NCBI GenBank assembly: GCA_944384235.1
Contig: CALWSP010000006.1
Location: forward strand, 62,001 to 126,000
Origin: an uncultured Clostridia bacterium
GTDB taxonomy: Bacteria > Bacillota > Clostridia > Lachnospirales > CAG-274
Length of the DNA: 64,000 nt
Reading direction: 5' to 3'
The translations under genes were made by a program, and so were the position numbers. Numbering within the stretch: position 1 is the stretch's first letter; every line of letters starts with the position of its first letter. The notes below the pieces were generated by a model. That model was not told the DNA's origin. It did no database searches and saw nothing but the letters and a program-made list of their open reading frames with translations. This document shows, piece by piece, positions 25,197 through 48,879 of this stretch.

Positions 25197-25198
25197 TA

Positions 25199-25271
<73 letters not shown>

Positions 25272-25289
25272 AAATAACTTATAGACAAC

Positions 25290-43889: not shown

Positions 43890-45119
43890 TTAAAGGTGAT
43901 TAACATTTTCAAGCCCAGCATTCATAAACTTGTCGTGAATAGCAATAGCGGCTCTATCAGCGTCGTTTTCGCTAACAAGAACAGTAATTTTAATTTCAGA
44001 TGTAGAAATCATTTTAACATTAATACCTGCATCATAAGTAGCTTCAAACATCATTGATGCAACGCCTGGGTTAGTAGCCATACCTGCACCAACAGCAGAA
44101 ACCTTAGCAACTTGGTCGTTGTAGCTAATGCTTTCAAAACCAATAGTAGCTTTGTTTTCCTCAAGGAACTTAACAGCTGGCATCATATCAGCCTTAGTCA
44201 CAGTAAATGAAATATCCTTGCTAGAATCCCTACCAATAGACTGAATAATAAGGTCAACACTAATTTTCTCCTTGCTTAATAAAGAAAAAATTTTAAAAGC
44301 AACACCAGGCTCATCTTTAACGCCTAAAACAGCAATTCTAGCAACATCTTTATCTACGGCAACACCGTTTACTAACATTCTTTCCACTTTTGTTTCCTCC
44401 TTAACAACTGTACCCTCAGCATCTGTCATACTGCTACGAACAACTAAATTCACATTATATTTTTTAGCAAGCTCAACCGAACGGTTGTGAAGCACTTTAG
44501 CACCTAAACTTGCAAGCTCAAGCATTTCATCATAAGTAATTTCTTCAAGCTTTCTAGCTGTCTTTACAATTCTTGGGTCGCAAGTATAAACTCCATCTAC
44601 ATCAGTATAAATTTCACATAAATCCGCACCTAGCTTTGCTGCAAGAGCAACAGCAGATGTGTCAGAGCCACCTCTACCTAATGTAGTAACATCAAGGTTT
44701 CTGTTTATTCCCTGAAAACCAGTAATAATTACAATATTTTTTCTATCTAATTCGTTGTTAATTCTTGAAGTTGAAATGTCTTTAATTCTAGCATTGCTAT
44801 AATTAGAAGTTGAAAAAATATTGCACTGAAAAGCATTGAGAGAAATAGCTGGGTAACCAAGCTTTTCAATAGCCATAGCCATAAGAGCAACAGACTGCTG
44901 TTCACCAGTAGCTAAAAGCATATCCATTTCTCTTTTACTAGCGTTAGGGTTTATCTCTTTAGCCTTTTCAATTAACTCATCAGTAGTGTCGCCTTGAGCA
45001 CTAAGCACAACAACCACTTGATGACCTTCTTTGTAACTATTTACAATAGTTTGAGCAACGTGATTTATTCTCTCTGCATTTGCAACAGAAGAACCACCAA
45101 ATTTTTTAACAATTAACAT
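43890..45119 (-). CDS. lysC: Aspartate kinase
   Basis: A 409-residue enzyme committing aspartate to lysine, threonine and methionine. Kinase motifs are KKFGGSSVANAERI (start), TGFQG, TTLGRGGSDTSAVALAA and DVDGVYTCDPR. Two ACT domains follow (~265-400), as in feedback-inhibited aspartokinases (VRIAVLGVKDEPGVAFKIF). RBS AGGAGG. It follows hom by 10 bp and is the last gene of the UPF0735-hom-lysC operon. Confidence 0.95.
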   Translation of the reverse strand: MLIVKKFGGSSVANAERINHVAQTIVNSYKEGHQVVVVLSAQGDTTDELIEKAKEINPNASKREMDMLLATGEQQSVALMAMAIEKLGYPAISLNAFQCNIFSTSNYSNARIKDISTSRINNELDRKNIVIITGFQGINRNLDVTTLGRGGSDTSAVALAAKLGADLCEIYTDVDGVYTCDPRIVKTARKLEEITYDEMLELASLGAKVLHNRSVELAKKYNVNLVVRSSMTDAEGTVVKEETKVERMLVNGVAVDKDVARIAVLGVKDEPGVAFKIFSLLSKEKISVDLIIQSIGRDSSKDISFTVTKADMMPAVKFLEENKATIGFESISYNDQVAKVSAVGAGMATNPGVASMMFEATYDAGINVKMISTSEIKITVLVSENDADRAAIAIHDKFMNAGLENVNHL

Positions 45120-45129
45120 ACTTTGCCTC

Positions 45130-46368
45130 CTAGCCTTCCATTCTTATACTGTTAAGGATACTAACTATACCCTTGCAATTAATAAGTTCATTAAGTTTGT
45201 CGTTAATTTCAGCCTCTTTAGCCTCGCAAGTAACAAAAGCAAACTCATTTTCCAAACCAAAAAACTCCATAATTTCATCTGTTCCAAACACTTTTAAAAC
45301 ATCTGCTTTTGCTTCCTCTTTATTATTATATTCAACTCTAACAAACTTTCTCACTAAAACATCGTCAATGCTCATAAGCTCTTGTTTTTGCTCAGACCAG
45401 CCAATTCCAAGGTTAATATCCTTGTGCCTTATAGCCTCTACAATGTCTGAAACAACAGCGCTTGCCGTTGGCAACTTTCCAGCACCCTTGCCATAAAACA
45501 TAACATCTCCAAGCATATTGCCCTTTAATAAAATAGCGTTAAAAACGTCGTTTACCATACTTAATGGGTTTTCATTTAACACAACAGCTGGAGCAACTCT
45601 TGCCCAAACCTTACCGTCATTAAACTTAGCAGTAGCTAATAACTTCACGCTACCACCCATTTTCTTTATGTAAGCAATATCTGCTTTAGATATACTAGTT
45701 ATACCCTCTGTATATATGTCATCATAACTAACAGTTTTTTCAGTTGCTAAAGATGCTAATATAGCAATTTTTCTACAAGCATCATAACCCTCAACATCAG
45801 CGTCAGGGTTTCTTTCAGCATATCCTTTTTCCTGAGCATCGCTTAAAACGTCATTATACTCTAAGTCTTCGTCACTCATTTTAGAAAGCATATAATTAGT
45901 TGTTCCGTTTAATATGCCTGTTATTTCCTCTATTCTATCAGAAGTAATACTTCTGTTAATTGGTCTAATAATTGGAATACCGCCACCAACAGATGCCTCA
46001 TATAAGAAATTCACGTTGTTTTCTTTTGCAATTCTCATAAGCTCGCTACCATAAGAGGCAACTAATTCCTTGTTTGATGTGCAAACACTTTTTCCCTTTT
46101 GTAAAGCACTTTTAACAAAAGTGTAAGCAGGGTTTGTCCCACCCATAACCTCCACAACCACTTCAACACTAGGGTCGTTTAATATATCATCATAATTGTG
46201 TGTAATAACATTTTGGATTGGGTCGTTAGGAAAGTCCCTTAAATCCAAAACATATTTAATTTCTATTGGCTGACAAGCCTTAGCCTCAATTCTTTTTTTG
46301 TTAGTTTTTAAAACTTCAACAACACCAGAACCTACGGTTCCGTAGCCTAAAATCGCAATGTTTGCCAT
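45130..46368 (-). CDS. hom: Homoserine dehydrogenase
   Basis: A 412-residue NAD(P)-dependent enzyme reducing aspartate semialdehyde to homoserine. Rossmann motif ILGYGTVGSGVVEVL (~5-19), then SNKELVASYG, EASVGGGIPIIRP and NGTTNYMLSKM around the active site, and GYAERNPDADVEGYDACRK; a C-terminal ACT domain (~335-410) suggests threonine control. The UPF0735 gene ends 7 bp upstream and lysC starts 10 bp downstream. Confidence 0.96.
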   Translation of the reverse strand: MANIAILGYGTVGSGVVEVLKTNKKRIEAKACQPIEIKYVLDLRDFPNDPIQNVITHNYDDILNDPSVEVVVEVMGGTNPAYTFVKSALQKGKSVCTSNKELVASYGSELMRIAKENNVNFLYEASVGGGIPIIRPINRSITSDRIEEITGILNGTTNYMLSKMSDEDLEYNDVLSDAQEKGYAERNPDADVEGYDACRKIAILASLATEKTVSYDDIYTEGITSISKADIAYIKKMGGSVKLLATAKFNDGKVWARVAPAVVLNENPLSMVNDVFNAILLKGNMLGDVMFYGKGAGKLPTASAVVSDIVEAIRHKDINLGIGWSEQKQELMSIDDVLVRKFVRVEYNNKEEAKADVLKVFGTDEIMEFFGLENEFAFVTCEAKEAEINDKLNELINCKGIVSILNSIRMEG

Positions 46369-46375
46369 TTTATTA

Positions 46376-46819
46376 TCACTCCCTTGCTATAACCTTTAAA
46401 GAAATCACCCCGTGTATTTTAGAAATATTTTCGAGCATTTCTTTAATCCCCAAAGTCAAACCAGCTGTGTCAATAGTAATTGTTACATTAGCAACATTGT
46501 TGATAGGTATTGTTTGGTTTATAGTCAAAACATTAGCACCTTGGTCAGCCATAATGTTTAAAACTAAAGATAAAATACCTGCTTTGTCCTCAAGACTAAA
46601 AGCTAAAATAACAATTTTTCCCCTTGAATTGTTACTTAATGCAGAAACATAGTCCTTGTACTTGTAATAAGCACTTCTGCTAACGCCAACTTTTTCTACG
46701 GCTTCTTGCACAGAACTAACAAGCCCTTTTTCCATTAATTCTTTAACCTGCACAACTTTTATAAAGACTTCTGGCATAACCTTTTTGTCAACAATGTAAT
46801 AGTCTGAATTCATTTGCAT
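46376..46819 (-). CDS. UPF0735 ACT-domain protein with N-terminal HTH-like region, likely operon regulator
   Basis: A 147-residue protein. Residues ~33-57 (LVSSVQEAVEKVGVSRSAYYKYKDYV) look like a helix-turn-helix; ~68-145 form an ACT domain (KIVILAFSLEDKAGILSLVLNIM), a fold that binds amino acids. The family (UPF0735, including PheB next to pheA in Bacillus) has no settled function. Here it heads an operon with hom and lysC, so an amino-acid-sensing regulator of aspartate-family synthesis is a reasonable inference. A frame opens at 46840, but ATG 46819 has AGGAGG. An inverted repeat straddles its transcription start, compatible with autoregulation. Confidence 0.82.
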   Translation of the reverse strand: MQMNSDYYIVDKKVMPEVFIKVVQVKELMEKGLVSSVQEAVEKVGVSRSAYYKYKDYVSALSNNSRGKIVILAFSLEDKAGILSLVLNIMADQGANVLTINQTIPINNVANVTITIDTAGLTLGIKEMLENISKIHGVISLKVIARE

Positions 46820-46827
46820 TTGTTTTC

Positions 46828-46856
46828 CTCCTATGTACATTTGTTTTCCATAGGAG
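46828..46856. promoter_or_regulatory. Inverted repeat at the UPF0735-hom-lysC transcription start (candidate operator)
   Basis: CTCCTATG-N13-CATAGGAG, perfect 8-bp arms with centres 21 bp apart. One arm covers the predicted transcription start and the other covers the AGGAGG ribosome binding site. Confidence 0.55.
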
Positions 46857-46857
46857 A

Positions 46858-46886
46858 ACTATACCACAATTTTCATTTTTTTGCAA
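46858..46886 (-). promoter_or_regulatory. Promoter of UPF0735-hom-lysC
   Basis: TTGCAA (46881-46886), 17-bp spacer, TATAGT (46858-46863) on the minus strand; start expected near 46851. Confidence 0.8.
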
Positions 46887-46986: not shown

Positions 46987-48465
46987 TTATAACATAATAC
47001 AAATTAAACCACCGTTGCCTTCGTTAATAATTTTTTGTAATGTTTCTTTAAATTTAAATTGAGTGTCCTCAGGCATTCTCATAAGTTTAGAGTTTAAATC
47101 ATCTGTCATAAGCTCTTTTAAAGTTCTGCCAAATATACTATAACTCCACATACCCTCAGGGTTTTCTTTGTATTGGCTGCATAAATACTTAACAAGCTCT
47201 TTAGATTGCTCCTCGCTGCCAACAATAGGCGAAACACTAGTTTTTATGTTAGTTTTTATAAGGTGTATTCCTGGTGCGTCAGCATCTATTTTAATTCCAT
47301 ATCTACTACCTTGCTTTAAAACTTCAGGCTCAGAAATTGTCATTTCTTCAACAGATGGAGTAACAATTCCATATCCCTTTTCATTAACTTCATCTAAAGC
47401 ATATCTAATTTTATCATAAGCTTTTTTCGCCTCTGCTAATTGCTTCATCATCGAAATAAGCTCATATTCGCTTTTAATCTCCATACCAGTTGTTTCAGAT
47501 AATATTCCGTAAAATAAATGGTCTTTCAAACTAACTTCTAACCCAACTTTACCCTCGCCTAAATTTATTTCATCAGAATATAACTTTTTAACATTTCCGT
47601 TGTTTTCGAGAATAGAAAGGTTTTTGCTAATATCTCTAATGCCGTTAATTTTTTCCATCATTTCTTTAACAGAGTCAATAATGTTTTCTTTAAGCCAGTG
47701 GTTGCTAGGCATAGCCTCAAGCCATTTAGGTAACATAATGTCAACTTCACTTAAAGGAAATTGATATAAAGCTTCCTCTAATATAGAATTTATATCCTCT
47801 TGGCTTAAATTTTTACAATCGCAAATAATAACCCTGCAACCATATTTGTTTTCCATTTGCTTTGCAACTTCTAAAGTTGATTCTGAGTTTTTCTTAGCAG
47901 AGTTTAAAACAATAACAAAAGGCTTGTTAAGCTCCTTTAATTCCTTTATAACTCTTGCCTCGCTGTTAATGTAACTTTCTCTAGGTATGTTTGTAATAGA
48001 ACCATCGCTTGTAATAACCATAGCAACTGTTGAATGTTCTCTTATAACTCTCTGAGTTCCAAGTTCAGCAGCCTGAGCAAAAGGCATTTTTTCATCTGAC
48101 CAAGGCGTTGAAACCATTCTAGGCTGGTTGTCAATAATATGTCCACTTGCCCCGTCTACAATGTAACCAACACAGTCAATTAACCTAACATTTAAATTAA
48201 TGTTTCCATCTAAATTAATTTTAACAGCTTCATTTGGCACAAACTTAGGCTCTGTTGTCATAATTGTGCTACCCTCGGCAGATTGAGGCAACTCATCTCT
48301 AGTTCTAGTTTTAACATACTCATTTTCAATGTTTGGTATAACTAGCTTTTCCATAAAATTTTTGATGAATGTAGACTTGCCAGTTCTAACAGGTCCAACA
48401 ACACCTATGTAAATATCCCCTGCTGTTCGTTTTGCTATGTCCTTGTATATATCAAAACTATTCAT
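46987..48465 (-). CDS. spoIVA: Stage IV sporulation protein A (spore coat base ATPase)
   Basis: A 492-residue ATPase that polymerises on the forespore surface to anchor the coat. Walker A is VVGPVRTGKSTFI (~22-34); other conserved parts are EYVKTRTRDELPQSAEGSTIMTTEPKF (positions ~49-75), DCVGYIVDGASG and the C-terminal EGNGGLICIML region. RBS GGAGG. Length matches Bacillus and Clostridium SpoIVA. I found no convincing sigma-E promoter by eye. Its presence is strong evidence for endospore formation. Confidence 0.97.
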   Translation of the reverse strand: MNSFDIYKDIAKRTAGDIYIGVVGPVRTGKSTFIKNFMEKLVIPNIENEYVKTRTRDELPQSAEGSTIMTTEPKFVPNEAVKINLDGNINLNVRLIDCVGYIVDGASGHIIDNQPRMVSTPWSDEKMPFAQAAELGTQRVIREHSTVAMVITSDGSITNIPRESYINSEARVIKELKELNKPFVIVLNSAKKNSESTLEVAKQMENKYGCRVIICDCKNLSQEDINSILEEALYQFPLSEVDIMLPKWLEAMPSNHWLKENIIDSVKEMMEKINGIRDISKNLSILENNGNVKKLYSDEINLGEGKVGLEVSLKDHLFYGILSETTGMEIKSEYELISMMKQLAEAKKAYDKIRYALDEVNEKGYGIVTPSVEEMTISEPEVLKQGSRYGIKIDADAPGIHLIKTNIKTSVSPIVGSEEQSKELVKYLCSQYKENPEGMWSYSIFGRTLKELMTDDLNSKLMRMPEDTQFKFKETLQKIINEGNGGLICIML

Positions 48466-48645: not shown

Positions 48646-48879
48646 ATGAAATCATTAAATATCAAATTAGACTCTATCGATAAGGTAAAAGACTTTGTAA
48701 ACACAGTAAACACATTTGATGGTGACTTTGATTTAGCTTCAAGCAGATATGTAGTAGATGCTAAGTCAATTATGGGTATCTTCTCATTAGATGTAAGCTC
48801 AACTTTACGCCTTGATGTTCACGATGACTCTGAGTTTGAGGCAGTTAAGTCAGCTTTAAATGACTATATCGTAGAATAA
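48646..48879 (+). CDS. HPr-like protein lacking the active-site histidine
   Basis: A 77-residue single-domain protein with the HPr fold. Aligning back from the conserved KSIMGIFSL places Ser41 at the regulatory Ser46 position of HPr, while the phosphorylated His15 position is Ser10 and Arg17 is Asp12 (SIDKVKDF instead of GIHARPAT). It therefore cannot carry phosphate in sugar transport but could still be a target of HPr kinase or a regulator like Crh, which likewise lacks His15. RBS GGGAGGT. It has its own promoter and terminator, and richer codon usage (CTT, AAG, GGT) suggests high expression. It is divergent from spoIVA. Confidence 0.82.
   Translation: MKSLNIKLDSIDKVKDFVNTVNTFDGDFDLASSRYVVDAKSIMGIFSLDVSSTLRLDVHDDSEFEAVKSALNDYIVE

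Follow-up and report, generated by a model that had tools for sequence, protein, structure and literature searches.

Which DNA sequence is read by a predicted amino acid-sensing regulator that is encoded at the head of an operon for homoserine dehydrogenase and aspartate kinase? The question is raised by a locus on the minus strand of a 64,000-nucleotide stretch of an uncultured Clostridia bacterium (the window, to which all positions refer), where the original prediction had taken a perfect palindrome at the promoter for the operator of an autorepressor.

The thrR operon and its product

On the minus strand of the window, the gene order is promoter, thrR, hom, lysC and terminator-like hairpins. 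thrR (46376-46819) encodes a predicted repressor of 147 amino acids with an HTH and an ACT domain and belongs to the PheB/UPF0735 family; PheB is its older name. hom (homoserine dehydrogenase, 45130-46368) has the domains PF00742 and PF03447 and matches PRK06349 with 436 bits, lysC (aspartate kinase, 43890-45119) matches NF005155 with 549 bits and the hairpins found by a terminator scan lie 3' of lysC at 43823-43777. Other families of the comparison have an ORF between hom and lysC. A promoter scan identified the -35 hexamer TTGCAA (46881-46886), with the TTG kept in orthologues, and the -10 hexamer TATAGT (46858-46863), with a 17-nucleotide spacer and a TG ahead of the -10. The Shine-Dalgarno sequence AGGAGG can be read at 46827-46832; the more likely start codon of thrR is the ATG at 46819-46817, seven nucleotides past AGGAGG, rather than the ATG at 46840 chosen by the ORF caller.

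Directly upstream of the operon lies spoIVA (46987-48465, minus strand), encoding the spore-coat morphogenetic ATPase SpoIVA. An HPr-like protein of 77 amino acids is encoded on the plus strand at 48646-48879 (Pfam PTS-HPr, E 9e-6); its sole histidine is H59, so that the N-terminal histidine at which HPr is phosphorylated appears to be missing. Two tRNA-Phe genes, both with the anticodon GAA, are at 1473-1548 and 25198-25272. An Rfam search of the window found tRNAs alone and no leader family ahead of the thrR operon, and hence neither a riboswitch nor a T-box for the control of hom.

The thrR product is a full-length match to NF003361 (PRK04435, 'ACT domain-containing protein'): the alignment spans positions 2-148 of 148 and scores 182 bits, compared to a curated cut-off of 131. 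A Pfam search placed the ACT domain (PF01842) at residues 78-134, in the numbering of the 154-amino acid ORF. The N-terminus is predicted to form a tri-helical HTH, judged from a single-sequence structure model with three helices at residues 16-62 (core block pLDDT 77-88; the mean pLDDT of this model is 47.5 and it is poor outside the HTH), from a sub-threshold Pfam match to HTH_7 and from the residues S47, R48, Y52, K53 and Y54: all five are invariant in an alignment of 28 sequences and map to the predicted third helix or its edge, a pattern that would fit a recognition helix. No sequence relative of the protein was found among solved structures. An HTH and ACT-domain regulator at the head of hom and lysC, as originally proposed, is thus borne out at the level of domain predictions.

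Strong ThrR-like matches are present in roughly half of 299 sampled Bacillota genomes, most often directly before hom: hom is downstream of thrR on the same strand in 79/87 members of the order and in 50/60 representatives of the phylum. An NF003361 match is also present in B. subtilis, one of the control genomes, and in Bacillales-type genomes the members of NF003361 sit in the order spo0B-obg-thrR-pheA (Pfam-checked in L276 and L282), as published for thrR of B. subtilis (PMC8226366). By this match and this context, the window gene and B. subtilis thrR are of the same family. The family can hence no longer be described as lacking a settled function, as had been stated, since PMC8226366, citing Rosenberg 2016, names ThrR as the repressor of hom-thrC-thrB (hom-thrCB) in B. 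subtilis. According to PMC8226366, mutation of the ThrR binding site in the hom promoter raised hom-lacZ expression from 275 to 970 units, and inactivation of thrR also increased the expression of hom. ThrR is further listed as a negative regulator of thrC (PMC6522883).

A genus-specific palindrome and a conserved double box

The palindrome CTCCTATG-N13-CATAGGAG is present as an exact match at 46828-46856, where it overlaps the predicted transcription start and the Shine-Dalgarno sequence of thrR, and it is the only mismatch-free occurrence in the genome of 1.75 Mb. Inverted repeats of 8 bp are not rare as such: there are 198 with spacers of 3-25 in the window, and 16 (overlapping) with G+C-rich arms and spacers of 8-20, compared to 1.8 per shuffled window. 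It is not the inverted repeat itself that exceeds chance but its conservation within the genus: across seven genomes, all eight pairs are formed in the window, seven in five congeners and five in one, with compensating changes in the arms (CTCTATG/CATAGAG).

Outside the genus the pairing is lost, and what is kept instead is an overlapping element whose centre is 1.5 bp away from that of the palindrome. This predicted ThrR operator, which we call the double box, was found by promoter comparisons and has the consensus TGT-N13-ACA-NN-TGT-N13-ACA; its two dyads are spaced by exactly 21 bp and lie over the -10 and the start site. In the window it covers 40 bp on the minus strand (46821-46860) and reads AGT-N13-ACA-AA-TGT-N13-ACA: the left half-site is the final AGT of the -10 hexamer TATAGT (TGT in other genomes), the two dyads abut in the central element ACAAATGT (46837-46844) and the right half-site ACA (46821-46823) is 21 bp from the central ACA.

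Three samples of promoters were compared; the genomes are kin, so that the counts are not independent. Among the 87 thrR promoters of the order, 74 have ACAnnTGT-N13-ACA (0.06 in shuffles; window copy at 46821-46844), and these promoters come from 14 of the 16 families of the order; the spacing between TGT and ACA is 13 in these 74, and any other spacing occurs at most 13 times. The same pattern is present in 72/80 promoters of named Bacillaceae-type hom genes (0.07 in shuffles), where an additional TGT, separated by 13 bases from the ACA that follows it, completes the double box; the box predicted in the B. subtilis group (L131) is TGTCTGTGTTGAGTTAACAATTGTCTTTTTCGAGAGGACA. The third sample consists of sixty more thrR loci, about one per family of Bacillota: of the 50 with hom downstream on the same strand, 34 have the outer TGT and ACA at a spacing of exactly 34 bases, compared to between 1 and 7 at each of twelve neighbouring spacings, and 16 are without the outer pair. 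The phylum consensus is TATAATGTCTACC...GGATAAATGTCCA...AGGACA, with a weaker middle ACA in the phylum-wide lineages. The strict pattern is missing from some thrR-hom promoters (family f9, 1/7; family f17, 4/8). The phylum-wide double box appears to be new: no comparative description was found in the open-access literature that was searched.

These comparisons bear directly on the proposal that the main operator is the palindrome itself, as a single symmetric site whose arms are separated by two helical turns. Its perfect 8+8 arms, the seven of eight pairs in five of six congeners and the compensating changes are in favour of this, but none of the 67 other promoters of the order reaches seven pairs in that register, yet they retain the ACA/TGT elements, and the centre of the palindrome is offset from that of the conserved element. 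Beyond the genus, a role as conserved operator is ruled out, and we consider it very improbable that the palindrome is the main operator in the window. The two-turn spacing that had first drawn attention to it also holds for the conserved box, at 21 bp from ACA to ACA and from TGT to TGT. The palindrome inside the operator may provide an extra contact, serve another regulator or have arisen by drift around the Shine-Dalgarno sequence.

The probable link between the box and ThrR

Genomes in which thrR and hom are separated, or in which thrR is absent, connect the double box to the protein. With thrR in spo0B-obg-thrR-pheA or at some other distance from hom, five genomes (L303-L306, L308) have the strict double box at hom and three further ones (L309-L311) have partial forms, and 9/10 thrR genes with no adjacent hom have no box of their own. 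At the hom promoters of ThrR-less Bacillota genomes the box was found in no form (0/29; Fisher p ~1e-17 in comparison to the order set and 3e-10 in comparison to the phylum set, values that overstate the evidence because the sequences are related, so that the number of families with the box tells more). The same is true for the thrR-less members of the own order (0/5); here, one single deletion could have taken gene and box together, and the in-trans cases and the phylum-wide control therefore have more weight. Two of these five (L211, L212) retain the final codons of thrR (IARE or ARE, followed by a stop) directly before hom, a sign of recent gene loss. At two other loci (L113, L117), ThrR-like proteins are encoded apart from hom and there is no box at either thrR or hom; these proteins may have another regulatory target. 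Operon structure and conserved box together make the hom promoter the predicted target of ThrR.

The box could also be the site of another regulator of hom, or a feature of the core promoter, given its overlap with both the -10 and the start site and that its link to ThrR is drawn here from sequence comparison. However, it is gone from the hom promoters of ThrR-less genomes and remains at hom where ThrR is encoded elsewhere, and we consider this explanation as improbable as the palindrome as main operator.

A search of the own genome with the box pattern returned 16 matches, no more than with a reversed control (29); 15 are within ORFs and the only match outside an ORF is the thrR promoter. 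No box was found at thrC, at the thrB-like gene or at the second hom of this genome, and further ThrR targets in the genome are not supported. This second homoserine dehydrogenase (L218, C1:165225-166331) is 44% identical to the first.

Even less probable is translational control by an RNA hairpin that is formed by the palindrome and masks the Shine-Dalgarno sequence. An RNA starting at 46856 would indeed fold with -11.4 kcal/mol (z -3.5), but the -10 ends at 46858 and transcription is expected to start near A46851, leaving the left arm mostly untranscribed; an RNA starting there does not form this hairpin (-3.0 kcal/mol, z -0.2), and conservation stops at the genus. Start-site geometry and folding thus both make the hairpin unlikely.

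The weakest alternative, suggested by the old name PheB and by the position of thrR next to pheA in Bacillales-type genomes, is that the protein controls phenylalanine synthesis and that its location before hom is incidental. Against this, hom follows thrR on the same strand in 79/87 members of the order and 50/60 phylum representatives, the box is found at hom even where thrR adjoins pheA and the genetics of B. subtilis indicate hom-thrCB (PMC8226366).

Proposed mechanism and comparison with known systems

We consider it very probable (about 0.87) that the gene is the clostridial orthologue of ThrR and represses its own thrR-hom-lysC operon via the 40-bp two-dyad operator, by exclusion of RNA polymerase. 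Of the autorepressor first proposed, repression of its own operon is therefore retained as very probable on comparative grounds, while the site is a different one, the double box in place of the palindrome. In the proposed mechanism, the N-terminal tri-helical HTH would read the half-sites and ThrR would bind cooperatively to two identical TGT-N13-ACA dyads, which, being 21 bp apart, would face the same side of the helix. As the dyads extend from the end of the -10 across the start site into the first transcribed bases, bound ThrR would exclude RNA polymerase. We expect the ACT domain at the C-terminus to sense an amino acid of the aspartate family, with threonine as the first guess, and to form dimers or tetramers that hold both dyads, so that thrR-hom-lysC would be shut off when this amino acid is plentiful. 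For the organism of the window, we infer repression, autoregulation, ligand and the oligomeric state and stoichiometry.

A wider scenario, to which we give somewhat less than even odds, is that control of the threonine branch by ThrR is ancestral in all Bacillota, with a four-half-site operator of two 21-bp-phased dyads that meet in ACAnnTGT and would need a tetramer of ACT-domain dimers, and that the palindrome of the genus evolved within it to give an extra contact or to serve a second regulator.

In place of a palindrome of one single genus, there is now a testable, phylum-wide candidate operator of ThrR, and the double box names the exact bases for mutation. Many proteins annotated merely as 'ACT domain-containing protein' are tied by it to the predicted control of homoserine dehydrogenase; the ThrR annotation should be widely transferable, given how many of the sampled Bacillota genomes have a strong match and how often this lies directly before hom.

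The closest known system is ThrR of B. subtilis (Rosenberg et al. 2016, 10.1111/mmi.13429), which, in the account given by PMC8226366, shares with the window protein the NF003361 family, the HTH and the ACT domain. The hom promoters of B. subtilis-group species carry the same double box, which we infer to be the same site as the B. subtilis ThrR operator; repression of hom is published there and predicted here. There are three differences. Unlike thrR of B. subtilis, which is part of spo0B-obg-thrR-pheA and controls hom in trans, the window thrR opens thrR-hom-lysC and, being the first gene of this operon, should regulate itself; lysC is included in the window operon; and the left half-site at the -10 overlap is AGT in the window and not TGT. 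An ACT domain at the C-terminus is shared with amino-acid sensors such as the AHAS small subunit and aspartate kinase, to which the thrR product has weak profile matches, but in ThrR of the window it is fused to an HTH and is predicted to act on DNA rather than on an enzyme.
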